Source of the DNA: Pseudomonas sessilinigenes
GTDB lineage: Bacteria > Pseudomonadota > Gammaproteobacteria > Pseudomonadales > Pseudomonadaceae
DNA: 64,000 nucleotides
Direction of reading: 5' to 3'
NCBI RefSeq assembly: GCF_003850565.1
Contig: NZ_CP027706.1
Location: 3,348,001 to 3,412,000, forward strand
Under the pieces are notes generated by a model. It did no database searches. It saw only the letters and a list, made by a program, of their open reading frames with translations, and was not told the DNA's origin. Each line of letters starts with the position of its first letter. Within the stretch, counting starts at the first letter, position 1. Shown piece after piece: positions 25,370-61,763 of the stretch. Made by a program: the position numbers and the translations under genes.

Positions 25370-28300
25370 ATGGAAAAGGCAAAAGGTATCACTATCGTCG
25401 ATATGTTTGAGAGTCAGGCGAAGCTAAGGTCAAGTAAAACTGCCTTGTTGCATCGCTCTGATAGTATAACTTACGGTCTGCTAAATGAGAAAATAAATCA
25501 GTTGGCAAGGCACTTGATTGAACGCGGTGTTGAGAGTGGAGATATTGTTGCGGTATGTGTTGAGCAGTCAATAAGCCGTGTTGTGTTTATGATGGCGATA
25601 GTGAAAGTCGGTGCCGTCTATTTACCTCTTGATCCTGATTACCCCACTGCTAGGTTTGATTTTATTCTTGAAGATACACAAACGGAATTGGTGATAACCT
25701 CAAAAGCATATGAGCATAAATTTTCCGAATTTCGAGGGGCTTTAATTATTCCTGATAGTGATCAGGAGAAGGCTCTAGTTGAAAAGCAATCAAGCGATAA
25801 TGTTTTAAAAGAAATTCCGTTATCCAGTTTGATGTATGTGATCTATACGTCTGGAAGTACCGGGGTTCCGAAAGGAGTAGCCGTTCAACATAGTGCAATA
25901 GCGAGCTTTATTGAAAATGTTCAACCGGTGCTCAATGTTTCATCGGAAAATACCGCTATACAGATTCTTTCTTATACATTCGATGCTTCGTTTGTTGATA
26001 CATGGATGCCACTCCTGATTGGTGCGACATTGTATCTTTATCCAGATAATAAGTTGTTGGGTGAAGCATTGTTGAACTACATTAGGGAGAATCGTATTGA
26101 TACTATCCCAATGATTACTCCGACTATTCTCGCTACATTTCCGACCGGGCAGCCAATAGGAGAGCTTAAAAGTATTGTCGTAGGTGGTGAGGCCTGCGCG
26201 GATAATGTATTTCTGTACTGGGCCGATAGACTTCAAATGTACAATCTTTATGGCCCAACTGAAGCGACAGTTGCTGTAACTTGCCATAAGTATGTGGCTG
26301 GGCAAAGCGTTAAGAATATCGGGAGTCCTTTAGCTGGTGTTGATTTTTATGTATTAGATGAAGAGCTTAAGCCTTCACCTTTAGGGGGGGCAGGTGAGCT
26401 TTTTATTGGTGGTGCGCAACTTGCTCAGGGGTACTTAAATAGGCCGGAGCTGACAAAAGAAAAATTTGTATATATTGATGTGGCTGATCCAAAAACTGGA
26501 AAGCTTGAAAGTAAGAGGCTTTATAGGACTGGCGATATTGTAATGCTATTACCGAACGGAAATATTGAATATATAGGGAGAAACGATACGCAGCTCAAGG
26601 TTCGAGGATTTCGCATTGAATCTGGCGAGATTGAGAACTCAATAAACAGAATAAAAAATATCCGAGAGTCTGCGGTTGTAATAGTGAGTAAGGAACTGGG
26701 ACAGCCAGTGCTAGCGGCTTTTGTTACTCTGTCGAATTATCACGCTAAAGATGAGGTAAAAATAAAGGCGGAGATTAGGAAGGCTCTGCAAAATACTCTT
26801 CCTTCCTACATGGTTCCCGATAAGATTTTTATTTTGGACTATTTTCCGCAGACGGTTAGTGGGAAAATCGATCGAAAAGCACTTCAGTCCTTAATGAAGG
26901 AGGAGGAGCTTTCGTTAGATGATATTGTGGAAGGTGATATTGAGGGGACACTTGTTGCAATATGGAAGCACGTTTTGCAGGCGGACGATATTAAAGCTCA
27001 GGACAATGTTCTTGAAGTAGGAGGGAATTCAGTTGCCATTGTGCGTGTGTTCACCAGTTTGCCAGAGTCTATAAGAAATAAACTGACATTGGTTGATCTT
27101 TATACCTACCCCTGTATTGAGCAGTTGGCGCGAGAGATAAAGCTTCGAGAAAATAAGCGCCCGCTCACGTTTGAAGAGAAAATGCATGAGTCTAAGAAGA
27201 CTCTACTTGGTGATATCAAGCTTGCGGCGGACTATGAATTTCCATCGGATATTGATCCTGGTGTTCTAGCTAATCCAGAAAATATACTATTGACTGGTGC
27301 GACAGGTTTTGTTGGAGTGCACTTGTTGTTGGAGTTGCTAGATAAAACGTCGGCAAAAATATATTGCCTAGTCAGAGCGGAAAGTGCGAAGCATGCTATT
27401 GAGAGGATAAAGTTTACCTTAAGAAAATATAGACTTTCCTGGCCCGAAGAGCAATCTAGTCGAATCCTTCCTATCTTGGGGGACTTTACTCGACCACAAC
27501 TCGGGATGTCGGATTCAGATTTCGATGATACATCAAAAAATATTCAAATTGTCTATCATACCGGTGGAAATGTTAACTATGTAAAGCCATACGCCGAAAT
27601 GAAAGCGGTCAATGTAAATGGGATTCAGGAAATAATTCGCTTTGCGACAACGTCAAAGTTGAAGTATTTGGTTGCCTGTTCCACCATTGCCGTTTTTAGC
27701 TGGGGATATCTGACTACAGGTAAAACATGGATGTGTGAAGATGATGATATCCATCAGAATCTGTCCGTGGTTTGTAGGGATACTAACTATGTCAGAAGCA
27801 AATGGGTTATGGAAAATATCTTGGAGGAAGCAAAAAAGAAAGGGCTGCCTGTTATTGGCATTCGACTAGGATTCGTCATGTGCCAGAATGATAGCGGTGC
27901 TACAGAAATGAACCAGTGGTGGGGAAGTTTCGTACGCTGCTGTGTAGCTCTCGGAACCTATCCCATGATCATGGGGCTTAAGGATCAATTGGTGACTGTG
28001 GACTTTGTAGCAAAAGCCATTGTACATATCTCTCAGAATAAAGAGGCTCCTGGTAAATTCTTTCACCTCGTTCCTGAGCCAGTGCATGACATATCTGTGC
28101 CGGAGTTTTTTGAGAAATTAAATGAGTATTTCGGAATTAAACTCCGGCCTATCCATTATCGTGAGTGGTTAAGTAAATGGAAGGATAATGAACATAGCCC
28201 ACTATATAGCTTGTTAAGCCTATTCACCGAGGAGATCGTTCCAGGAAAATCTCTGGTCGAATCATATGAAATGACTTATTACTTTGATAGGAAGAATACT

Positions 28301-28405
28301 TCTGAGTTCCTTAAAGGAAGTGGAATAGAAACACCTCCAATCGATAAGTCGCTTCTTTCGAGGTATTTGGGCTTTATGGGTATATCTGCACATAGTCCTC
28401 AGTAG
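25370..28405 (+). CDS. NRPS-like adenylation-carrier-reductase enzyme (A-T-R)
   Basis: A 1011-residue, one-module enzyme. The adenylation domain (about 10-510) has YTSGSTGVPKGV (from about 159), NLYGPTEATVAV, RLYRTGD, GRNDTQLKVRGFRIESGEIE and the A10 lysine in VSGKIDRKAL. The pocket region FDASF keeps the Asp that binds an amino group, so an amino acid substrate is likely, but which one is unclear. The carrier motif EVGGNS has Ser554 for phosphopantetheine. The reductase domain begins at NILLTGATGFVG (638-649), with Tyr807 and Lys811 in the short-chain-dehydrogenase spacing. It should release an amino aldehyde or alcohol using NAD(P)H. There is no condensation domain. The ribosome site is ggag. 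Confidence 0.93.
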   Translation: MEKAKGITIVDMFESQAKLRSSKTALLHRSDSITYGLLNEKINQLARHLIERGVESGDIVAVCVEQSISRVVFMMAIVKVGAVYLPLDPDYPTARFDFILEDTQTELVITSKAYEHKFSEFRGALIIPDSDQEKALVEKQSSDNVLKEIPLSSLMYVIYTSGSTGVPKGVAVQHSAIASFIENVQPVLNVSSENTAIQILSYTFDASFVDTWMPLLIGATLYLYPDNKLLGEALLNYIRENRIDTIPMITPTILATFPTGQPIGELKSIVVGGEACADNVFLYWADRLQMYNLYGPTEATVAVTCHKYVAGQSVKNIGSPLAGVDFYVLDEELKPSPLGGAGELFIGGAQLAQGYLNRPELTKEKFVYIDVADPKTGKLESKRLYRTGDIVMLLPNGNIEYIGRNDTQLKVRGFRIESGEIENSINRIKNIRESAVVIVSKELGQPVLAAFVTLSNYHAKDEVKIKAEIRKALQNTLPSYMVPDKIFILDYFPQTVSGKIDRKALQSLMKEEELSLDDIVEGDIEGTLVAIWKHVLQADDIKAQDNVLEVGGNSVAIVRVFTSLPESIRNKLTLVDLYTYPCIEQLAREIKLRENKRPLTFEEKMHESKKTLLGDIKLAADYEFPSDIDPGVLANPENILLTGATGFVGVHLLLELLDKTSAKIYCLVRAESAKHAIERIKFTLRKYRLSWPEEQSSRILPILGDFTRPQLGMSDSDFDDTSKNIQIVYHTGGNVNYVKPYAEMKAVNVNGIQEIIRFATTSKLKYLVACSTIAVFSWGYLTTGKTWMCEDDDIHQNLSVVCRDTNYVRSKWVMENILEEAKKKGLPVIGIRLGFVMCQNDSGATEMNQWWGSFVRCCVALGTYPMIMGLKDQLVTVDFVAKAIVHISQNKEAPGKFFHLVPEPVHDISVPEFFEKLNEYFGIKLRPIHYREWLSKWKDNEHSPLYSLLSLFTEEIVPGKSLVESYEMTYYFDRKNTSEFLKGSGIETPPIDKSLLSRYLGFMGISAHSPQ

Positions 28406-28413
28406 CTCTTGAT

Positions 28414-28447
28414 AGCAGTGCGTCACTGCGTGATGCACTGCTTTTTT
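28414..28447 (+). terminator. Terminator-like hairpin between the NRPS-like and thioesterase genes
   Basis: agcagtgc (28414-28421) pairs perfectly with gcactgct (28435-28442), with a further partial inner stem, followed by six T. This is a classic intrinsic terminator, yet the thioesterase gene begins only 14 bp later in the same direction. It probably works as a partial terminator that lowers thioesterase expression. Confidence 0.75.
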
Positions 28448-28460
28448 AATTAGAGAACCT

Positions 28461-29159
28461 ATGCTTATGAAGAAGCCACAAATATTTACTTTACATTTTG
28501 CGGGTGGAAACTGTTACTCATACCAGTTTATGAAACCGGCGTTGCTTGATTTTGATGTTGTCTCGGTAGAGTTGCCTGGAAGAGGAAGGAGAATGGCTGA
28601 GCCACTTATCCGAGGCTTCGAGGCCGCTGCTAAAGACATGTTTCAGCAAATTGTATCACAGCTTACTGGGAGTTCTTTTATTTTATATGGACATAGTATG
28701 GGGGCAATACTCGGTTTGAAGGTCGCGCGAATGCTAGAGGACTATGAGAAAAAACCATCAGCTCTTATTTTTACCGGACATGCAGGTCCAAAATTAGTTA
28801 AATATAAGAATACTGCTTTTCTTGAGACTCAGGAGCTAAAGCAGGTGTTACTTGATCTTGGCGGCTTGCCTGACAGTGTCATACATAATTCGGAGTTGTT
28901 TTCATTTTTTGAACCTGTTATCAGAGCTGATTTTGAAGTGGCTGAGCGTGCAGACAGCTATGAATTTGAACCGGTTGATATTCCACTTCATGTAGTGATG
29001 GGGACCGAAGAGGACTTCTCAGACAAAATCGGTTTGTGGGAAAAGTATACAACATCTAGTTTTAGTAAGGGTCTACTTAGTGGTGATCACTTTTTTATTC
29101 ATAATCATATTTGTGAAATAGCTGCTATTGCAAAGTCAATGTTGTCAAAAGAAGGCTAG
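28461..29159 (+). CDS. Type II thioesterase (GrsT/RifR family)
   Basis: A 232-residue alpha/beta hydrolase. The family start FTLHFAGGNCYSYQFM gives the oxyanion region. ELPGRGRRM follows, then the nucleophile elbow YGHSMGA with Ser79. The acid is expected after VMGTEEDF, and the catalytic His lies in SGDHFFIHNH. Such stand-alone thioesterases clean misloaded acyl groups from carrier domains, here presumably that of the neighbouring A-T-R enzyme. A second ATG lies two codons in and could be used. AT-rich composition matches the NRPS-like gene and differs from the flanks. Confidence 0.92.
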   Translation: MLMKKPQIFTLHFAGGNCYSYQFMKPALLDFDVVSVELPGRGRRMAEPLIRGFEAAAKDMFQQIVSQLTGSSFILYGHSMGAILGLKVARMLEDYEKKPSALIFTGHAGPKLVKYKNTAFLETQELKQVLLDLGGLPDSVIHNSELFSFFEPVIRADFEVAERADSYEFEPVDIPLHVVMGTEEDFSDKIGLWEKYTTSSFSKGLLSGDHFFIHNHICEIAAIAKSMLSKEG

Positions 29160-53335: not shown

Positions 53336-54556
53336 TTAAGTTGTTTGAGACTCTGTGTTTTCGAGACGCTTTGAGAAGTGTTGAAAATAGATGGCTATTA
53401 TTGTTGCGAATACCATTAATGCGGATGCTAAGATAAAAGGAGATGCTCGGCTGAATGATGAAATAAGTAAGCTCCCTAAAGCGGGGCCTAGCACAATGCA
53501 GAGCATCTGAAGGCTTCTGAATGATGCTGATATTCTTCCTAGTTTAGCTGCGGGGCAAAGATTTTGGAGTATGACATTGGACGATATCATCAACAATTCG
53601 TAACCGAATCCATTCACAAACCAAAAAATTATTAGATAAGAAGGGTGAATGACAGGGGCGAAGTATAAGGTAATACATGCTGCTAAAATAGCTAGGCTAA
53701 AAAGGGTTAGGCCAAGGGTTCGAAGCTTTATTTCATTAAGCTTTATAAGTTTTATCTTAACCCCGATGGCCGCGAATACAGCTCCAGCTGCTGTCGAAGA
53801 TACTACCAAAGAAAACACAACAGCTGGGAATTGAAGAGATGTTATGAGTGATGCAAGATGAGGGTCATAGCAAGCTAGAGCAAGTGATGTCAGTAACGAG
53901 TAGAAAAAACCTATTTTTAACTGGAAATCTAAAGAGCGAAATATCTTAGCTCCCTCTGAAAGGTCAATGAAAACAGCTTTAATAGTAAGCTTGTCGTTTG
54001 CTGGAGCTGGCTCTAATCTGGACCATATGTGTTTAAGAAAAGGTATGGTCGTGAGTAGTAGTACAGCTGAAACCAAAAAAATTGATTGCGTTGGAAGCCA
54101 AAGTGTGAGGACCCCAGCTAAAAGTGGGGTGGAGATTTTAGTGATCTGGTCAAGTAGGCTTGAATAACTAAAGAAATCCGTTCTAGAGTCTGCTGAGATC
54201 AATTGTTTTATTGATATTGAAATCGTTGGAAAATATAACATGTTAGAAAGGCCTTTGAGTATGGCCATTATTAAAAACCATTCGAAACTAGGTGCTAGAA
54301 AAAAACCTAATGTAGTGACGAATCGTAAAGAAATTCCTGCAAGCAAGCTGGTCTTAATATGTATGCGATCAAGAATAACACCGGCTATAGGTCCTAAAAA
54401 TAACGAGGCTGAACCTAATGAAAAAGCGAGAGTTGCTATTTCATATGGTTGAGAGTTCCATAAATAAATAGGGACCAAAAAAATAAGGAAGAAATCAATC
54501 CAGAGAGAGAGAGAGGAAAGGGCATTTATGGTTAGGAGTGCTCTCATGTTGTTCAT
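53336..54556 (-). CDS. MFS exporter of cargo 2
   Basis: A 406-residue major-facilitator protein with about 12 hydrophobic helices and the motif GPIAGVILDRIHIKTSLLAG (about 54-73), the loop 2-3 signature of drug/product exporters of the EntS/MefA type. The start 54556 is 2 bp after the carbamoyltransferase stop, so it is the last gene of that operon. It most likely exports the product of the peptide-SagB-carbamoyltransferase pathway and may give self-protection. AT-rich codon use matches the other cargo 2 genes and not the pil genes next door. Confidence 0.88.
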   Translation of the reverse strand: MNNMRALLTINALSSLSLWIDFFLIFLVPIYLWNSQPYEIATLAFSLGSASLFLGPIAGVILDRIHIKTSLLAGISLRFVTTLGFFLAPSFEWFLIMAILKGLSNMLYFPTISISIKQLISADSRTDFFSYSSLLDQITKISTPLLAGVLTLWLPTQSIFLVSAVLLLTTIPFLKHIWSRLEPAPANDKLTIKAVFIDLSEGAKIFRSLDFQLKIGFFYSLLTSLALACYDPHLASLITSLQFPAVVFSLVVSSTAAGAVFAAIGVKIKLIKLNEIKLRTLGLTLFSLAILAACITLYFAPVIHPSYLIIFWFVNGFGYELLMISSNVILQNLCPAAKLGRISASFRSLQMLCIVLGPALGSLLISSFSRASPFILASALMVFATIIAIYFQHFSKRLENTESQTT

Positions 54557-54558
54557 AT

Positions 54559-56166
54559 TTATGCTTCTGTCTTCAGATAAATATCGCTCTCGAATACGAA
54601 CCCATCTAGTTCATTTTGTATTGCAAAGGCTCTCAGGTCTGAAAGGCTATTTATAAATCCATAGCCGTTGAAATTAAGCGACGTGTTACATAGTACAGCT
54701 ATGCCTGTCTGTTCCTTAAAGGATTTTAAAAGCTCATACATCATTGGGTTTTGATGATGTGATACAGATTGAGGTCTGGCTGAACTGTCTGCATGAGTAA
54801 CAGCTGGAATTTCAGGAGAAATTACTTTCCTAAATTCAAGCATGTAAGGAGAAGGTGATGCTGGGCTGAAATATTTTTGCATATCATCTTCACAGCAGAC
54901 AGGGGCGATGGGTCTGAATTTCTCTCTCAGCTTTATTGCATTAAGTCTATCCAAGTTATCCCTAGGGTATGGAGCTGCAATAAGTGATCGGTTGCCAAGA
55001 GCTCGGGGGCCTAATTCATAGCGTCCTTGAATCCAACCAAATATTGACCCTTTACTGAGTAAAGAGGCTAAGCGAGAAGCGTTATAAGCCTCCCGAGTGA
55101 AACCTTCCACTTTTGTAATGTCCCGCAGAGGATTTTCTCCTGAATAGGGAGACCACTTTATTTTTGCATTTCCGCTAAAGAAGAATTGGGCGTCGATAGC
55201 TGTACCTATCGCCGAACCGCTGTCATTAGTGCAGGGGGGGATAAAGACGTCTGAAAATAATTTACTCTCTATCCACTTTGTATTCCAGTCACAATTAAGG
55301 CCGCACCCGCCAGAGATAAGTAGAGGAGCGCTGCTTCTTACGTTTTTTCTCACGAAGGAAAAGAATATCTCATATAGCGCATTTGAAAAGTGTGCGACGA
55401 GAGTTGCAAAGCGTGGGCTATCGACTCCGATGTTATAGTAGGGGCTGTCTTTGAATTTATCTTTTTTAATGCATGAAAAGTTTAATGATCCATCCAAGAG
55501 CGTATTTATAATCTGTTGGCCTTCAGGGTCGATAGGCCCTTTAGAGCTGTATGCAGTTAGAGCCATAAGTTTCCCGGCATCGCTCAGCCGTATTTGGCCT
55601 GCTCCAAGGTTGAACTGTGGATCGGCAATCGCATAAAGAAATGCGAATCTATTTCCTGGGTGGTCTAAGACTTTGCCAAGCTTGGTGATTTTGATATTTT
55701 CGTCAATATAATAAAATGAGCCAAAATGACCCTCCCATAATAGAGCATAACATGGTTGCCCCTGGGGGAATGGGGACATACCATATGCGCATAATAGATG
55801 TGAACGTTCATGGGAAGAGGAAAAAAAAGTTATTTCTTTACCCAGCGATTTTTGGGTTGTTATTTGTTGGTTACCAAGTCCAGAGTACCCAGCTCCGATT
55901 GGGCTCCCGTCAGGGCTAGCTCCTTTACTCCAGCCACTCATAGCGATCACATCTGGAGTTTCATCGCAAAGTTCTAATGCTTTAATAAAAGTACTAGGGG
56001 AGGCCCAGCCATACCGGTATCCATTATCTTTTTCTGCCTCTAAAGCAAATTCCAATTTTCCATTACTAATTAAAGCTATGCTCCCATCATGGCCTTCCTT
56101 CATGCTTAGGATTCTTAATCCAGCCTTATTGTAAATTCCTTTTTGAATTAGCTCAGCTGTTTTCAT
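54559..56166 (-). CDS. NodU/CmcH-type carbamoyltransferase
   Basis: A 535-residue enzyme that would move a carbamoyl group from carbamoyl phosphate (through carbamoyl-adenylate) to a hydroxyl or similar acceptor. The N-terminal Kae1-like domain shows EGHDGSIALISNGKLEF, the metal-binding SSHERSHLLCAYG (HxxxH) and LISGGCGLNCDWN. The C-terminal domain (about 380-535) has the signature GWIQGRYELGPRALGNRS and ends with LCNTSLNFNGYGFI. The start 56166 (MKTAELIQ) has gaagg upstream; a longer frame would run far into the SagB-like gene, which it overlaps by 14 bp. The acceptor is unknown. Confidence 0.9.
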   Translation of the reverse strand: MKTAELIQKGIYNKAGLRILSMKEGHDGSIALISNGKLEFALEAEKDNGYRYGWASPSTFIKALELCDETPDVIAMSGWSKGASPDGSPIGAGYSGLGNQQITTQKSLGKEITFFSSSHERSHLLCAYGMSPFPQGQPCYALLWEGHFGSFYYIDENIKITKLGKVLDHPGNRFAFLYAIADPQFNLGAGQIRLSDAGKLMALTAYSSKGPIDPEGQQIINTLLDGSLNFSCIKKDKFKDSPYYNIGVDSPRFATLVAHFSNALYEIFFSFVRKNVRSSAPLLISGGCGLNCDWNTKWIESKLFSDVFIPPCTNDSGSAIGTAIDAQFFFSGNAKIKWSPYSGENPLRDITKVEGFTREAYNASRLASLLSKGSIFGWIQGRYELGPRALGNRSLIAAPYPRDNLDRLNAIKLREKFRPIAPVCCEDDMQKYFSPASPSPYMLEFRKVISPEIPAVTHADSSARPQSVSHHQNPMMYELLKSFKEQTGIAVLCNTSLNFNGYGFINSLSDLRAFAIQNELDGFVFESDIYLKTEA

Positions 56167-57238
56167 CGAGTAACCTTCTAACAGTTCGATCATAACCACT
56201 GCCACTACCGTGCCCAGCCCCAACAACAAAGATTACTTGTTCCTTCGGTTCAGTTAATTTAAGTAGGTTATTGATTTCTTTGTCGTGAAAATAACCGGTC
56301 AACCATGTTTGCAGCCCTAAGGCTGTTGCTAGTAGCTGAAAAGTTTGAGATAGATGTCCTATGTCCATGAGCATAGGGCGATAAGCTCTAGAGTGAGGGT
56401 ACTTCCACCACATTACGTCAAATTTTGCTACAAAAAATATGGCGAAAGCTAAGTCATCGCACCAGTGCTGGTTGCATAAAAGCGTGGATAACGGATCAAT
56501 AGGTAGGGGGGATATCTCTTCTAAATAATGTTCGTCATTAACATAGTGATAAATGCCTGGAGTGATATCTTTGACTTTTCTCACCCATACATAACCTTCA
56601 GTAGCTTGGAGTCCTCCAGCTGAAGGTGAAGTACGTCTATATCCAAAACGTTGCACACCTACAGGTGAATCGTAATGCCCTCGATCTACTGCTCCGAGTG
56701 TGCCTCCAAGTATTGTTGAAAGTGATTCAATTGAAATGGTTTCATCATAAAAGTCTCGACAAGTTTGCCTTTTAACTAGAGTGTGCCATAGACTTGCATT
56801 GATTAATTCTTGATAGTTTGGAGTTGGTAATAAATTTTTTGTTCCTCCTTTTTTTATTAAAACCTGCGGAGAGGAGGCGTGGATTGATTGGCAAAAATCC
56901 AAATAGCTTTTAGCGTATTCAATATGTTGAGAAGGTTCATAGGGGGATGGCGCGTTTGGGTGTGATGTACCAATGTGATAGATCCTTGCTAAAAAATCCC
57001 AACCCCACTCCTCCTCATTAGAAGGACCATCGGTTAATATTCCAGCCTCCGTTATTGCTTGATCTACTTTATCTTGTTTGATCTTCGAGCCTTCAGCAAA
57101 TTCAGACAGCCTCGAAAAGTCTTCTGTAGATATTTCAAATTGACGATGGTTTCTAAAATCCCAAAGATATGGCTTTCCTTGTTTAAAAAATATAAATATA
57201 TCGCTCGAAAGCCATTTCTTTATTTCATTGGTTTCCAT
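56153..57238 (-). CDS. SagB/ThcOx-family FMN oxidoreductase
   Basis: A 361-residue nitroreductase-fold protein of the SagB type. KRQTCRDFYDETISIESLSTILG and the FMN-binding RRTSPSAGGLQATEGYVWVRKV (about 175-195) lead to PGIYHYV. SRAYRPMLMDIGHLSQTFQ and ALGLQTWLTGYFHD complete the fold. The N-terminal 130 residues may bind a peptide leader. In azole-forming RiPP pathways SagB dehydrogenases oxidise azolines, but no YcaO cyclase is present here, so another oxidation is likely (for example of a peptide side chain). It lies after the small peptide gene with a hairpin between. Confidence 0.87.
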   Translation of the reverse strand: METNEIKKWLSSDIFIFFKQGKPYLWDFRNHRQFEISTEDFSRLSEFAEGSKIKQDKVDQAITEAGILTDGPSNEEEWGWDFLARIYHIGTSHPNAPSPYEPSQHIEYAKSYLDFCQSIHASSPQVLIKKGGTKNLLPTPNYQELINASLWHTLVKRQTCRDFYDETISIESLSTILGGTLGAVDRGHYDSPVGVQRFGYRRTSPSAGGLQATEGYVWVRKVKDITPGIYHYVNDEHYLEEISPLPIDPLSTLLCNQHWCDDLAFAIFFVAKFDVMWWKYPHSRAYRPMLMDIGHLSQTFQLLATALGLQTWLTGYFHDKEINNLLKLTEPKEQVIFVVGAGHGSGSGYDRTVRRLLDENS

Positions 57239-57267
57239 GGTAATGACTCACCAAAAAAGTTATAAAG

Positions 57268-57296
57268 AGGCGCCTAGCAATTGCTGCTAAGCGCCT
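57268..57296 (-). terminator. Attenuator-like hairpin between peptide and SagB-like genes
   Basis: aggcgcctagca (57268-57279) and tgctaagcgcct (57285-57296) pair over 12 bp with one mismatch and a 5-base loop. On the minus strand it follows the peptide stop by 12 bp and is followed by ctctttataactttttt. A leaky terminator here would give much more peptide message than enzyme message, as in many precursor-peptide operons. Confidence 0.72.
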
Positions 57297-57308
57297 GCTC
57301 AAGGTTTG

Positions 57309-57473
57309 TCAATTGGATTTTACAGCCTGTCGGCTAATGAGCTTCGAGTTGATTTCAGAAGGAGGGGAGAACTGGAACTGCGGCACTCTAACTTTCACTA
57401 CGCTGAAAGATGGGTTCGTGTACGCACTGTTGGATTGGTTCAACAAGGTTGGCTCAATCTTAACTTCTTTCAT
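57309..57473 (-). CDS. 54-residue peptide, candidate precursor peptide
   Basis: Start MKEVKIEPTLLNQSNSAYTN at ATG 57473 with gagga 8 bp upstream; the longer upstream frame lacks a site. The peptide has an acidic/basic leader-like first third, a middle SNSAYTNPSFSVVKVRVPQF, and a Pro/Ser/Lys end (SPPSEINSKLISRQAVKSN). No Cys, no Trp, no double-Gly leader cut, and no resemblance to PqqA, MftA or lantibiotics. The order peptide, hairpin, oxidoreductase, transferase, exporter is that of a ribosomal peptide natural product operon. It could also be a small regulatory or scaffold protein. Confidence 0.6.
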   Translation of the reverse strand: MKEVKIEPTLLNQSNSAYTNPSFSVVKVRVPQFQFSPPSEINSKLISRQAVKSN

Positions 57474-57912: not shown

Positions 57913-59886
57913 CTAACTAACAGTACCGATTGTGGCTGCTAACATTTTTTTGGCCAGCGCCTCCTGCTGCCCCTCGGGTTCTATCAGCTCAAGGCTTACT
58001 TGACGTTTGGCTAACAGCAGGTCCCACAACTGTTGGTCGATGCTGGCCTCTATCAGCGGTATTTTGACAATGACCATGCGCAGCTGGCCATTGCGATAGG
58101 CCCGGTCTTCGGCCTGATCTTGTTGACCAGGAGTCCATGGCAGCCCCAGGAAGAACACATAGTTTGCTGCGGTGAGGTTGTTTCCAGTGCCGGCGGCCGA
58201 TGTGGTGCAGATGAACACGCGACAGTCTGGATCCTGCTGGAACCGGTCGATCGCCTTTTGGCGTTTCGCGGTTGAGTCGCTACCTACCAGAGTGACGTGT
58301 CCGATCCCTGCTTCTTCGCAGAGTGCTTTCAACGCGGCTACGGTTGGCTTGAATTCGCAGAACAGGATGACCTTGTCGTCTGGGTCCAGCTCGCTGAGCA
58401 GATCCATCGCGATGCGGATCTTCAACTGCTCGAGATAGAAGCGCAGCGCTCCAAGCCGGGCGAAAATCGGTTTGTCCTCAAGGCGGATGACATCATATTG
58501 GCGCCGCTCCTCATCGCTCATCGCAATCGCCAGGAGTTGTCGTTGCTTACCTTTCAGACCGGGTAAAACATCCTTGCGCCGGCGAAGCATCCAGTCCCCG
58601 AGTTGGGCTCGCAGGTTCTGGCGAAATTCTGGGCTGCCGGAGAATTGCTCACAGAAATCCTTGAGTGGTAACTGGCCGATCGGGTGCCCAGAAAGCCGCA
58701 ACAAGGTGTGCAGTTCGGTTTCTCTGTTGAGGATAGGAGTGCCGGTCAACAAGTAGCGGTTGGGGATCTTTGCTGCAATGTCGAAACCGTGACGTGTCCA
58801 TAGCGCGGTCGGTTCTTTCAGGCGGTGGGCCTCATCGATCACCATCACGGCATAGCGCTCAGCGACGGTCACGTAGTCTCCCAGGCGCTCGTAGTTAATG
58901 ATCATCCACTGCGCCTCAGGGGCGAACTTCTGCTGCGCGACCGTAGCAGCGGGGTATACGGCGTGGATTTCGCGTTCCCAGTTGATGAGCAATGACGAAA
59001 GGGTGACGACTAAGATGGGTTGGCCTGCGGCCCTGATGTGAGCAGCAATCACCGCTTGGCGGGTTTTACCCAACCCCATGTCGTCCGCCAGCAGCGCGCT
59101 TGTGCGCTGCAGCAGATGAGCAATACCGACAGGCTGATGGTCGAGTAGGGAATACCCCTCCAGGGCCTTGGAAATCGCCTGCGCAGAGTATTCGGTGCGC
59201 TCGATAGGCGACACGGCTGCCAGGTAGATCTCATTGGAGACCTCTTCGGTGCTGGTAGCCTCCGTAGCCTCTTGTGGAGGGCCTCCTAGGCTGATCCTCG
59301 GCATACCCTCTGCCGGCGCTACGGAACCATCGTCCAGAAGCTCCTGAACGATATCCAGGAGCTCGATTTGTTCTTCCGCGAGCCCCAGTTCCAGGATGAG
59401 GTTGCTTCGAACCAGCTCAGCGGAAGCATCGATGCGCCAGGACGTGGATTTTCCGAGGAACACCCCGCGCATTCGCCTGGCCACGGCCACGACGCCGGGA
59501 TGGTAGTCACCTGACAGCAGGACTCCCCTTCCAGCCAGCGGCGCAATTCGCAGTTGCATGCCCCAGATGAACGCATCGCGCTGAGGAGATGCTTGAGCCT
59601 GTTCCAGTTTCTCTTGAAAGCTCTGCCAGGACTCTGTGAACCGGTCTTGGCCCAGCTCGAGGAGTTCGTGGAACACCAGGTCGAGCTCGCTGTTGAGTTT
59701 GTTCTTGGGGATCCTCCAATGTCGGTTGAGCGGGTGCTCGCCACGGCGGATGAAGAATCCACCACGACGGAGTAGCACCTTGTTTGCCCCTTCGATGAAA
59801 GGCATCTGAATCCCGAAGTCATAGCCGTCAAACACGGCTTTCTCAATGAGTACGGGCTGTCTGTTCATCATGCGAGGGCGGCTCAT
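57913..59886 (-). CDS. SNF2-type helicase/ATPase
   Basis: A 657-residue SNF2 protein. The N-terminal quarter (to about 215) is element-specific, with IEKAVFDGYDFGIQMPFIEG and RRGGFFIRRGEH. The motor follows: Walker A ADDMGLGKTRQAVIAA, motif Ia LVVTLSSLLINWEREI, motif II MVIDEAHRLKEP, motif III YLLTGTPILNRETEL, motif V STAAGTGNNLTAANYVF-type block (as ICTTSAAGTGNNLTA) and motif VI DQAEDRAYRNGQ. It remodels DNA or protein-DNA complexes. It overlaps the PcfJ-like gene by 4 bp, so the two work together or are at least made together. Confidence 0.88.
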   Translation of the reverse strand: MSRPRMMNRQPVLIEKAVFDGYDFGIQMPFIEGANKVLLRRGGFFIRRGEHPLNRHWRIPKNKLNSELDLVFHELLELGQDRFTESWQSFQEKLEQAQASPQRDAFIWGMQLRIAPLAGRGVLLSGDYHPGVVAVARRMRGVFLGKSTSWRIDASAELVRSNLILELGLAEEQIELLDIVQELLDDGSVAPAEGMPRISLGGPPQEATEATSTEEVSNEIYLAAVSPIERTEYSAQAISKALEGYSLLDHQPVGIAHLLQRTSALLADDMGLGKTRQAVIAAHIRAAGQPILVVTLSSLLINWEREIHAVYPAATVAQQKFAPEAQWMIINYERLGDYVTVAERYAVMVIDEAHRLKEPTALWTRHGFDIAAKIPNRYLLTGTPILNRETELHTLLRLSGHPIGQLPLKDFCEQFSGSPEFRQNLRAQLGDWMLRRRKDVLPGLKGKQRQLLAIAMSDEERRQYDVIRLEDKPIFARLGALRFYLEQLKIRIAMDLLSELDPDDKVILFCEFKPTVAALKALCEEAGIGHVTLVGSDSTAKRQKAIDRFQQDPDCRVFICTTSAAGTGNNLTAANYVFFLGLPWTPGQQDQAEDRAYRNGQLRMVIVKIPLIEASIDQQLWDLLLAKRQVSLELIEPEGQQEALAKKMLAATIGTVS

Positions 59887-61763
59887 GCGCGGCCCACCAG
59901 GTGACGGTCAACCCAATTTGCGACCTCTTCCTCCAGCAACTCTTGTCTCGATGAGCGTGTATATCGAGCCATTCCTCGGGTCAGGTTCGGCCAGCTCAGA
60001 TTGGAAGTGATTGCTCCTGAATTCAGTTGAGTGAGAAACCAGTCAAAAGCTGTTTTCGCGGGAGTACCAGTTGAGACTGGTGCATTACGGTGGGCTCGTA
60101 ATTGTGCGCAGAGAACTCTGGGGTTTTTCGATGAGGATGTAGTCTTTTTATCAATGCGTAGTTCTGCTGTAGCAAGGGAGTTGCTGTTGTGGCGTAGAGA
60201 AATTATTCGGCAGTCTCCCCTGTATGTGGAGTAGTCATAACTTCCCACGCAATGACGCATCCTGAGTTCTTCTTCAAATAAGTCATTTGGACAGAGAAGT
60301 TCAATGATTTCAATTCCGTTGGGGCAGGTGATAGGACCGCTCAACAATAATGGGGGCCATTCGAAAAGTTCATCGGCTTCTTCCAGGGCTCCCAGTGCGT
60401 TATCAATCTGGGCGCGGATTCTGGGTAAGTCTTGGTGAAACAATTCAACCTTATTTGCAATCTCTGCATAATTGCTTCTAAGGAAGAAGTCACTGACTTT
60501 TTTTCTCGCATCCAGTTTCTTGTGTTCGAGATTTCTATAAATCTCGGTGTAGTCCTTGATGCCTGCAATTACATAGGGCCAAGTAGAGTCATTCCAGGAG
60601 GTCGGGCATCCTTTGAATAGTAGATTCAGATTTAACTTCTGCTGACTTACATGAAAGAGGATTTCATAAGGCAGTTGTTGGATAAGATCCAGAAACACTT
60701 TCCAGTCTGAGCGATTCCGGGGCCGTCTATTACCGGCAGTCGCGCCGAGTAATAGGTGATGCCATCCAGCATTGCGACCCTCACGCTGCAACTGCGATAG
60801 AGCACCGCCTATGTGTCCAGGGCGACAGGTGCCGAGAAAGCGGATTGATGATTTGGGGGCCTTGAATAGCCAGGACAGAACATCAGAAATTGATATCCCC
60901 TGGTCTGCGGCTGCGCCGATGAGGTTGGCTTCTGCACCTGGAGTTATTGTGCCGTGAGCAGGGGTCAACTCTTGTACTGTGGGCCAAGGTGGGGCTTCGT
61001 ACTTGAGTTCTCCTTGAGTTGGCCACAGGGGTAAATCGTCGCTGGAGTAGCTCAGGATGACTATCAGTGGAATCAAGACTGGTTGAGCTTTGATCGCCTG
61101 GAGACGTCTGGTCTGATCGCCAGCGGCCAGCCAGTTATAGACCCTGGGATCAGGGCATCGAGCAGATCGAAGCGCAAACAAAATCGCAGGGTCAAGATGT
61201 GAGCAGAAGGCTTTGATAGAGCTTCCAATCTGCTTCATGTAGAAGTTCGTGCGCGGCCGGGTGTAACGTCTGTGCGGCCCCCTCACTTCATCGCTCTGCA
61301 GCGTAACGCCTGCAAAAGTTTCACCAAGGTCCTCCTGGACAAGCTGCTGCCCCAAATGTCGAGCGCTCCTGCAGAACGAGGTCAAAACAGCACCGGCGCT
61401 TATCCTCCTCAAATTTTCAAGCCGCCCTGCCAAGCCCAGGGCTGCTCGGCTCGAAGGCGTACTCAGCGGGATCCGACTCTGCTTGGTAATGATTGCTGCC
61501 TTTATGGACCTACCGTCGAACCATTGCAGCATGCTACCGAGTCGACAGATCACCAGTGTTTGCCCCTGGTGCACAACCGATGTCGTCCAGCAGCGAGTTG
61601 AACTTGTAGAGCGCAGGTAGTCGCGCAAAAACTGGCGGCGTCGTGCTGCCGGGATGCAAAAGTGCTCGGCCCAGGTACTGGCTACCGCGACCTGCTTGGC
61701 CGAGTAGCACTTTAAGGTTGGGTCGGCTTCGAAAGGGTGGGTGGTGTCTTGCGGTGCTTCCAT
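59883..61763 (-). CDS. PcfJ-like protein
   Basis: A 626-residue protein. Its C-terminal quarter has the PcfJ signature EELRMRHCVGSYDYSTYRGDC followed by RIISLRHNSNSLATAELRI and VLCAQLRAHRNAP, a beta-rich domain seen in phage and conjugative-element proteins. The first 450 residues are helical and rich in Leu, Arg and Trp (SIRFLGTCRPGHIGGALSQL; YEILFHVSQQKLNLNLLF). The function of PcfJ proteins is not known to me. It starts 89 bp after the topoisomerase stop and is coupled to the SNF2 gene. Confidence 0.75.
   Translation of the reverse strand: MEAPQDTTHPFEADPTLKCYSAKQVAVASTWAEHFCIPAARRRQFLRDYLRSTSSTRCWTTSVVHQGQTLVICRLGSMLQWFDGRSIKAAIITKQSRIPLSTPSSRAALGLAGRLENLRRISAGAVLTSFCRSARHLGQQLVQEDLGETFAGVTLQSDEVRGPHRRYTRPRTNFYMKQIGSSIKAFCSHLDPAILFALRSARCPDPRVYNWLAAGDQTRRLQAIKAQPVLIPLIVILSYSSDDLPLWPTQGELKYEAPPWPTVQELTPAHGTITPGAEANLIGAAADQGISISDVLSWLFKAPKSSIRFLGTCRPGHIGGALSQLQREGRNAGWHHLLLGATAGNRRPRNRSDWKVFLDLIQQLPYEILFHVSQQKLNLNLLFKGCPTSWNDSTWPYVIAGIKDYTEIYRNLEHKKLDARKKVSDFFLRSNYAEIANKVELFHQDLPRIRAQIDNALGALEEADELFEWPPLLLSGPITCPNGIEIIELLCPNDLFEEELRMRHCVGSYDYSTYRGDCRIISLRHNSNSLATAELRIDKKTTSSSKNPRVLCAQLRAHRNAPVSTGTPAKTAFDWFLTQLNSGAITSNLSWPNLTRGMARYTRSSRQELLEEEVANWVDRHLVGRA

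Follow-up and report, generated by a model that had tools for sequence, protein, structure and literature searches.

A four-gene operon of Pseudomonas sessilinigenes probably encodes a pathway for a ribosomally synthesized and post-translationally modified peptide (RiPP), which would belong to a SagB-centered, YcaO-independent family and use a peptide of 54 amino acid residues (aa) as precursor. The operon lies on the minus strand of the window analyzed in this study, a stretch of 64,000 nucleotides (assembly GCF_003850565.1, contig NZ_CP027706.1, positions 3,348,001 to 3,412,000 of the forward strand). Calls of open reading frames (ORFs) gave, in the order of transcription, the 54-aa peptide, a SagB-like flavoenzyme, a NodU-like carbamoyltransferase and an exporter of the major facilitator superfamily (MFS). 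The intact motifs of the enzyme families, the operon order and the existence of a peptide family can be read directly from the sequences. The features of the operon are as follows, with positions in the window.

57309..57473, minus strand: putative precursor peptide, 54 aa, type A (see below), MKEVKIEPTLLNQSNSAYTNPSFSVVKVRVPQFQFSPP followed by a variable hydrophilic tail
57239..57308, minus strand: hairpin between precursor and enzymes (folding energy), presumed attenuator or processing site
56153..57238, minus strand: SagB-like flavin mononucleotide (FMN) dehydrogenase, 361 aa, with a fused N-terminal domain that looks like a RiPP recognition element (RRE) (PF00881, TIGR03605)
about 57029-57220, minus strand: predicted RRE-like domain of SagB, residues about 7-70 (structure model)
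54559..56166, minus strand: NodU/TobZ-family carbamoyltransferase, 535 aa from the ATG at 56166 (PF02543 and PF16861)
53336..54556, minus strand: MFS exporter, 406 aa (PF07690)

Conservation of the peptide

A profile search with five aligned peptides identified 22 clusters with E-values of 8e-15 to 7e-32, of which the window's own was one. After type B peptides (see below) were added to the alignment, a second search identified three further type A sequences as well as three 33-aa type B peptides that matched weakly (E = 0.002–0.04). The mean pairwise identity among 26 type A peptides, including that of the window, was 75% for residues 1–37 and 35% for the tail. E7, P8, L10, N12, Q13, S14, N15, A17, Y18, P21, F23, and P37 were invariant. 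Moreover, four further species, P. kairouanensis, P. lactis, P. rhodesiae, and P. lurida, kept the order peptide-SagB-carbamoyltransferase-MFS at a different chromosomal location, where all four loci (4/4) adjoined a presumed fructose-bisphosphate aldolase gene (named by eye). A preliminary description of this DNA had proposed to check whether peptide homologs co-occur with the same three genes and whether a leader is conserved against a variable core; the co-occurrence was confirmed, and conservation was higher in residues 1–37 than in the tail.

Among the four named species, the proportions of synonymous (pS) and nonsynonymous (pN) differences in the peptide gene were 0.28–0.49 and 0.03–0.11, respectively. 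Between the window and these species, pS was 0.87–1.0, which is near saturation, and pN was 0.32–0.36. Given that pN was below pS, the peptide is, as judged from these sequences, a real conserved gene under purifying selection. A chance ORF was set aside on the basis of the homolog search, of pN being below pS and of the count of upstream motifs against shuffled sequences given below.

The SagB clade and its four layouts

The clade to which SagB of the window belongs (E ≤ 1e-60) was found in 107 of 398 Pseudomonas genomes, a count that includes the genome of the window. The comparison comprised 110 loci, i.e., 106 from the Pseudomonas SagB search and the four loci of the named species, with the window not counted. 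Also kept outside the 110 were duplicate loci and weaker SagB-like matches from two broader searches, one of the class (5 of 369 genomes, window included) and one of the phylum (15 of 398 genomes, including five of Pseudomonas). These weaker matches include L129–L132, L168, G188, a second match in G083, G805, G824, G871, G1016, and G1130; among those read, L129–L132 and L168 show no peptide of the type described next.

An ATG-started ORF of 15–62 aa beginning with M-x-x-[IVA]-x-[LIM]-[EQ] was searched for by script within 420 nt upstream of each SagB match. Such a peptide was present at 110 of 110 loci, at 109 by script and at L005, whose sagB match is split, by reading. The background of the script was 7 hits in 2200 shuffles and 1 in 362 other long ORFs. 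The peptides ranged from 21 to 58 aa. By sequence, the peptide family is strictly linked to this SagB clade in Pseudomonas. The preliminary description had named as contrary evidence SagB or carbamoyltransferase homologs that always occur without the peptide; SagB came with the peptide at all 110 loci examined, and relatives of the carbamoyltransferase occurred without SagB in 3 of 10 Pseudomonas genomes.

Four layouts were distinguished by the neighboring genes.

Type A (layout of the window): peptide with SagB, carbamoyltransferase and MFS protein; 4 loci
Type B: peptide with SagB, tetratricopeptide repeat (TPR)-methyltransferase, carbamoyltransferase and MFS protein; 3 loci
Type C: peptide with SagB, AurF-like diiron oxygenase (PF11583) and MFS protein; 95 loci
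Type D: peptide with SagB and MFS protein, no tailoring gene; 7 loci

In the remaining locus SagB lies at a contig end. The common denominator of types A–D is the peptide, SagB and the MFS protein, and the tailoring genes differ. Type C peptides are 21–25 aa long, for instance MKAITLEANKIANLAFLVAPKAR, and contain AN[LFM] in 95 of 95 cases, and type D peptides are of two kinds, MNAIVLESKALAAFALIGMPK and MEKIKLEQAVSAGHHALLGTSK. Where the flanking sequence sufficed, 55 of 69 type C loci sat between an rlmI-like and an ilvD-like gene (named by eye), as did all 7 type D loci; none of the 3 type B loci did. The SagBs of types A and B fall in one half of the SagB tree. The operon of the window is a branch of a wider, apparently undescribed family of systems with tiny peptides. 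The peptide-natural-product reading of the preliminary description is upheld by the conserved peptide frame in homologous clusters and by the peptide at all 110 SagB loci, but the combination of genes does not stand alone and forms a branch of a larger family.

Not all sagB genes are intact. They are frameshifted in P. rhodesiae (L004) and P. lurida (L005/L164), in both near a T run and in L005 also near a C run, and the peptide and carbamoyltransferase frames remain open in these loci. In addition, the sagB match is split in two in L122 and L124, and internal stops occur in G122 and G342. Thus, the system is dispensable, or switched; the frameshifts in L004 and L005/L164 could reflect phase variation or decay.

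SagBs were also observed in Acidovorax, Variovorax, Ralstonia, Yersinia, Xenorhabdus, and Burkholderia. Plasmids of Maritalea (L133) and Priestia (L134) carry SagB and MFS genes with 25–26-aa peptides upstream (MKKVTRTFPNKEKLASFVLDVNGVC and MTVFKPCENEYKIRVNLEHGETSPSK) that lack the Pseudomonas motif. A Streptomyces plasmid (L136) encodes a 33-aa peptide, a radical SAM protein resembling RiPP maturases, a methyltransferase, SagB and an MFS protein; the LDLNGNC end of its peptide resembles LDVNGVC of the Maritalea peptide. On a Roseateles plasmid (L169), a 36-aa peptide (MSTKVTKPIQSKPNLSVAPVKTNPNFVTPGMMYRAE) is encoded immediately upstream of a SagB-like gene, and the plasmid locus L170 has a 113-aa ORF in place of the small peptide. 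Given that none of the five plasmid peptides upstream of SagB (L133, L134, L135, L136, and L169) begins, by eye, with M-x-x-[IVA]-x-[LIM]-[EQ], they are leads only. The arrangement of SagB, MFS protein and small peptide may reach other classes and phyla, as in L133 and L134.

SagB and its N-terminal domain

The SagB-like protein scored above the cut-offs of PF00881 and TIGR03605 (SagB) and retains the WKY motif found in ThcOx. It is related to, but below the cut-off of, the NCBIfam family TIGR04511, "putative peptide maturation dehydrogenase" (143.5 bits, with its relatives up to 163, against a cut-off of 240). The N-terminal domain was modeled at a predicted local distance difference test (pLDDT) score of 90. 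The structures closest to it were mostly leader-binding domains of RiPP systems, including TigE, MccB, lasso B1 proteins, 5wgg (a sactipeptide enzyme), PbtF, TruD, PqqD, and ThcOx. A Pfam scan of six SagB N-terminal domains gave no significant match. Among the N-terminal slices, that of L049 was dropped because it contains a stop. From the model, the N-terminus of SagB looks like a fused RRE-like domain, which would correct the earlier statement that no RRE-like protein is present.

The carbamoyltransferase and its candidate target

The carbamoyltransferase matched both NodU/TobZ domains, PF02543 with 83.8 bits and PF16861 with 173.3 bits, and its HExSH and GPRALGNRS motifs were invariant in five aligned carbamoyltransferases. 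It scored well below the equivalog cut-off of NF041651, the NodU nodulation protein proper (252 against 1000 bits). Ten Pseudomonas genomes had a carbamoyltransferase match with E ≤ 1e-90, of which five were of type A, two of type B and three without a SagB match. The relatives in the last three (G088, G362, and G171; 44–50% relatives) had no SagB match in the surrounding 13.5-kb stretches. Thus, the carbamoyltransferase family alone is no marker of the system.

The motif SNxAY was present in 26 of 26 type A sequences. By locus, it was found by script in 3 of 3 type A and 3 of 3 type B loci and by reading in L005; none of the 95 type C or 7 type D loci had it. Given that SNxAY is limited to peptides linked to a carbamoyltransferase, comparison of the sequences suggests S14 or Y18 as the likely carbamoylation target. 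However, this restriction could also be explained by common descent, as the SagBs of types A and B share one half of the tree. A carbamoyltransferase tree, from which L044 was dropped for its length, separated types A and B with a deep support of only 80/79, and the carbamoyltransferases of the two types might have been recruited separately.

Genomic setting of the operon

The four-gene minus-strand operon of the preliminary description was recovered, with its SagB-like and carbamoyltransferase genes overlapping by 14 bp and a gap of 2 bp between the carbamoyltransferase and MFS genes. MFS proteins 45–47% identical to that of the window occupy the equivalent position in L002–L005. The hairpin reported after the peptide is also real by folding energy (-26.4 kcal/mol, z = -4.0), as 0 of 200 shuffles were equally stable. 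It was absent from the terminator list of a pattern scan. The equivalent intergenic stretches of L002 and L003 had z-scores of -3.3 and -2.9, respectively, and that of L005, with -0.64, was not significant.

As reported before, the operon is more AT-rich than its flanks. In 1-kb blocks, its GC content is 39–44%, versus 57–61% in the two blocks on either side. One flank encodes PilL2, a pilus protein of integrative and conjugative elements (ICEs) of the PFGI-1 class (TIGR03748), and the other a SNF2 helicase. Given its AT-richness and its position between these genes, the operon resembles cargo carried by an integrative element. A megablast search for plasmid copies of the operon gave no match, and of 102 stretches of viral contigs that matched a pattern none was confirmed. 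A role in phage defense was set aside, as PADLOC had no match for SagB, the carbamoyltransferase or the MFS protein. Elsewhere in the window, a second AT-rich island (25370-29159) encodes a 1011-aa protein resembling nonribosomal peptide synthetases, whose adenylation and reductase-like parts were recognized by eye, and a thioesterase-like protein, and is perhaps another natural-product cargo. At 57913-61763, the SNF2 helicase, with ZorD/DpdE/DrmD-like matches, adjoins a 626-aa protein whose PcfJ match is below cut-off.

Proposed pathway and alternatives

What we infer for this operon is dehydrogenation by SagB, carbamoylation, the sites and order of these modifications, export of a small product and a biological role. 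The N-terminus of the peptide (MKxVxIE) would serve as leader and be bound by the modeled RRE-like domain of SagB. Binding would present the conserved body (LxNQSNxAYxxPxF...) at the FMN site of SagB, and the enzyme would take two hydrogens from the core, by analogy to cyclodipeptide oxidase most likely by C-alpha/C-beta or backbone dehydrogenation. We prefer dehydrogenation to azoline oxidation because, by ORF and family calls, the operon contains no YcaO or other azoline-forming enzyme. The carbamoyltransferase, with carbamoyl phosphate and ATP as substrates, would then carbamoylate a hydroxyl group (or an amine) within the SNxAY block or close to it. Trimming by a protease encoded outside the operon and export by the MFS protein would follow.

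More likely than not, the operon is one branch of an undescribed RiPP class in which an RRE-fused SagB would act alone on precursors of 21–58 aa and dehydrogenate them independently of YcaO. In such a class, the tailoring modules would be interchangeable, i.e., a carbamoyltransferase, a methyltransferase with a carbamoyltransferase, an AurF-like diiron oxygenase, or none, and roughly one in four of the Pseudomonas genomes searched would contain it. In the branch of the window, the carbamoyl group would be either a stable O-carbamate on Ser14/Tyr18 or a leaving group for formation of a dehydroamino acid.

A tentative alternative is that the peptide is a scaffold and that a small molecule is cut from one conserved stretch, e.g., around Y18, as pyrroloquinoline quinone (PQQ) is made from PqqA, with a near-identical product across species. 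The high conservation of the peptide body (75% mean pairwise identity) and an exporter of the MFS type agree with this. Moreover, the type C peptides, alike over 95 loci and all with AN[LFM], fit a fixed small product and not a diversified peptide antibiotic. However, the operon contains no evident protease or further catabolic gene, and there is no known product.

It is unlikely that the peptide is a regulatory leader, i.e., an upstream ORF (uORF) of an attenuator, or a small partner subunit of SagB, with the enzymes acting on a free metabolite from elsewhere. The stable hairpin after the peptide would suit the former, and cyclodipeptide oxidases, which share the fold of SagB, use a small partner subunit. 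However, the peptide is conserved at the amino acid level despite many synonymous changes, and what is conserved is not a run of regulatory codons; a uORF/attenuator-only reading was set aside because of this protein-level conservation. In addition, type C/D peptides of 21–25 aa are short for a folded subunit, and SagB bears a modeled leader-binding-like domain.

Similar to the preliminary description, we found no YcaO in the operon; the sole YcaO of the genome, a stand-alone one, is about 1 Mb away. A YcaO was found somewhere in 39 of 42 SagB-positive genomes tested, and these YcaOs were mostly of one length class (frames of about 730–790 aa) irrespective of SagB type. No YcaO was found in the other three, G058 and G198 (type C) and G250 (type B), which are 99–100% complete; in G250 the carbamoyltransferase frame is shortened. 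Cys, Ser or Thr after residue 9 was present in 51 of 95 type C peptides and absent from 44 of 95 and from 2 of 7 type D peptides, which thus have no azoline site there. An ordinary split azole pathway, in which SagB oxidizes azolines made by the distant YcaO, was therefore set aside as very improbable: the WKY motif, the many genomes with YcaO and the 51 peptides with a possible site would allow it, but the three genomes without a YcaO found, the peptides without a site and the largely uniform YcaO length argue against it.

SagB-type enzymes are generally interpreted as oxidases of azolines that act after a YcaO enzyme. Here, a common SagB clade comes with a tiny, conserved peptide at all 110 loci examined, and some of the genomes yielded no YcaO. 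This offers a direct and cheap test of what a SagB flavoenzyme can do alone, and the presence or absence of a carbamoyltransferase, a methyltransferase and an AurF-like oxygenase can be compared within a single experimental system. Such a family is easily missed, because peptides of 21–25 aa are below the usual limits of gene calling.

Comparison with known systems

No description of the system was found in the open PubMed Central library, from which subscription papers are mostly missing. Nothing in this library joined SagB with AurF, or SagB, carbamoyltransferase, RiPP and Pseudomonas, and none of four peptide fragments tried was in print there. The system is possibly a new RiPP class.

The azole-forming enzyme McbC and the cyanobactin oxidase ThcOx work after a cyclodehydratase, whereas the operon of the window contains none and three SagB-positive genomes had no YcaO found. 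Both resemble SagB of the window in the FMN fold, the WKY motif and an N-terminal domain of the leader-binding type, and residues 7–86 of ThcOx (5lq4) have the TruD leader-domain fold (PMC5108345). The cyclodipeptide oxidase AlbAB (8uc3), in the text available, acts on cyclic dipeptides (PMC11055893). Loci of graspetide branch 6, as far as the accessible text goes, similarly have a SagB-like enzyme predicted next to the precursor but encode ATP-grasp ligases, of which the operon of the window has none (PMC8939145). RREs fused to PF02543 carbamoyltransferases are mentioned in a study from 2025, in which PF00881 serves to mark RiPPs (PMC12710340).

Crocagin is also a RiPP with a carbamoyltransferase, CgnI; its precursor and core are unrelated, and no SagB is named in the portion of text seen (PMC10070186). 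The preliminary description could not place a carbamoyltransferase beside a precursor peptide in any known class. For this pairing the std cluster of Streptomyces thermodiastaticus (2026) is now a precedent, although one without SagB; in the text available, the NodU-like StdF carbamoylates Lys of a ribosomal precursor (PMC13174530). StdF also contains a fused S8/S53 peptidase, and the cluster as listed there has YcaO-TfuA and a multinuclear non-heme iron-dependent oxidase (MNIO) (PMC13174530), whereas the carbamoyltransferase of the window stands alone, with only its two domains matched, and no protein of the operon matches S8/S53, YcaO-TfuA or MNIO. As far as the accessible part of that paper shows, the two systems share a NodU-like carbamoyltransferase alongside a ribosomal precursor, an MFS permease and a short conserved motif beginning with SN (PMC13174530).

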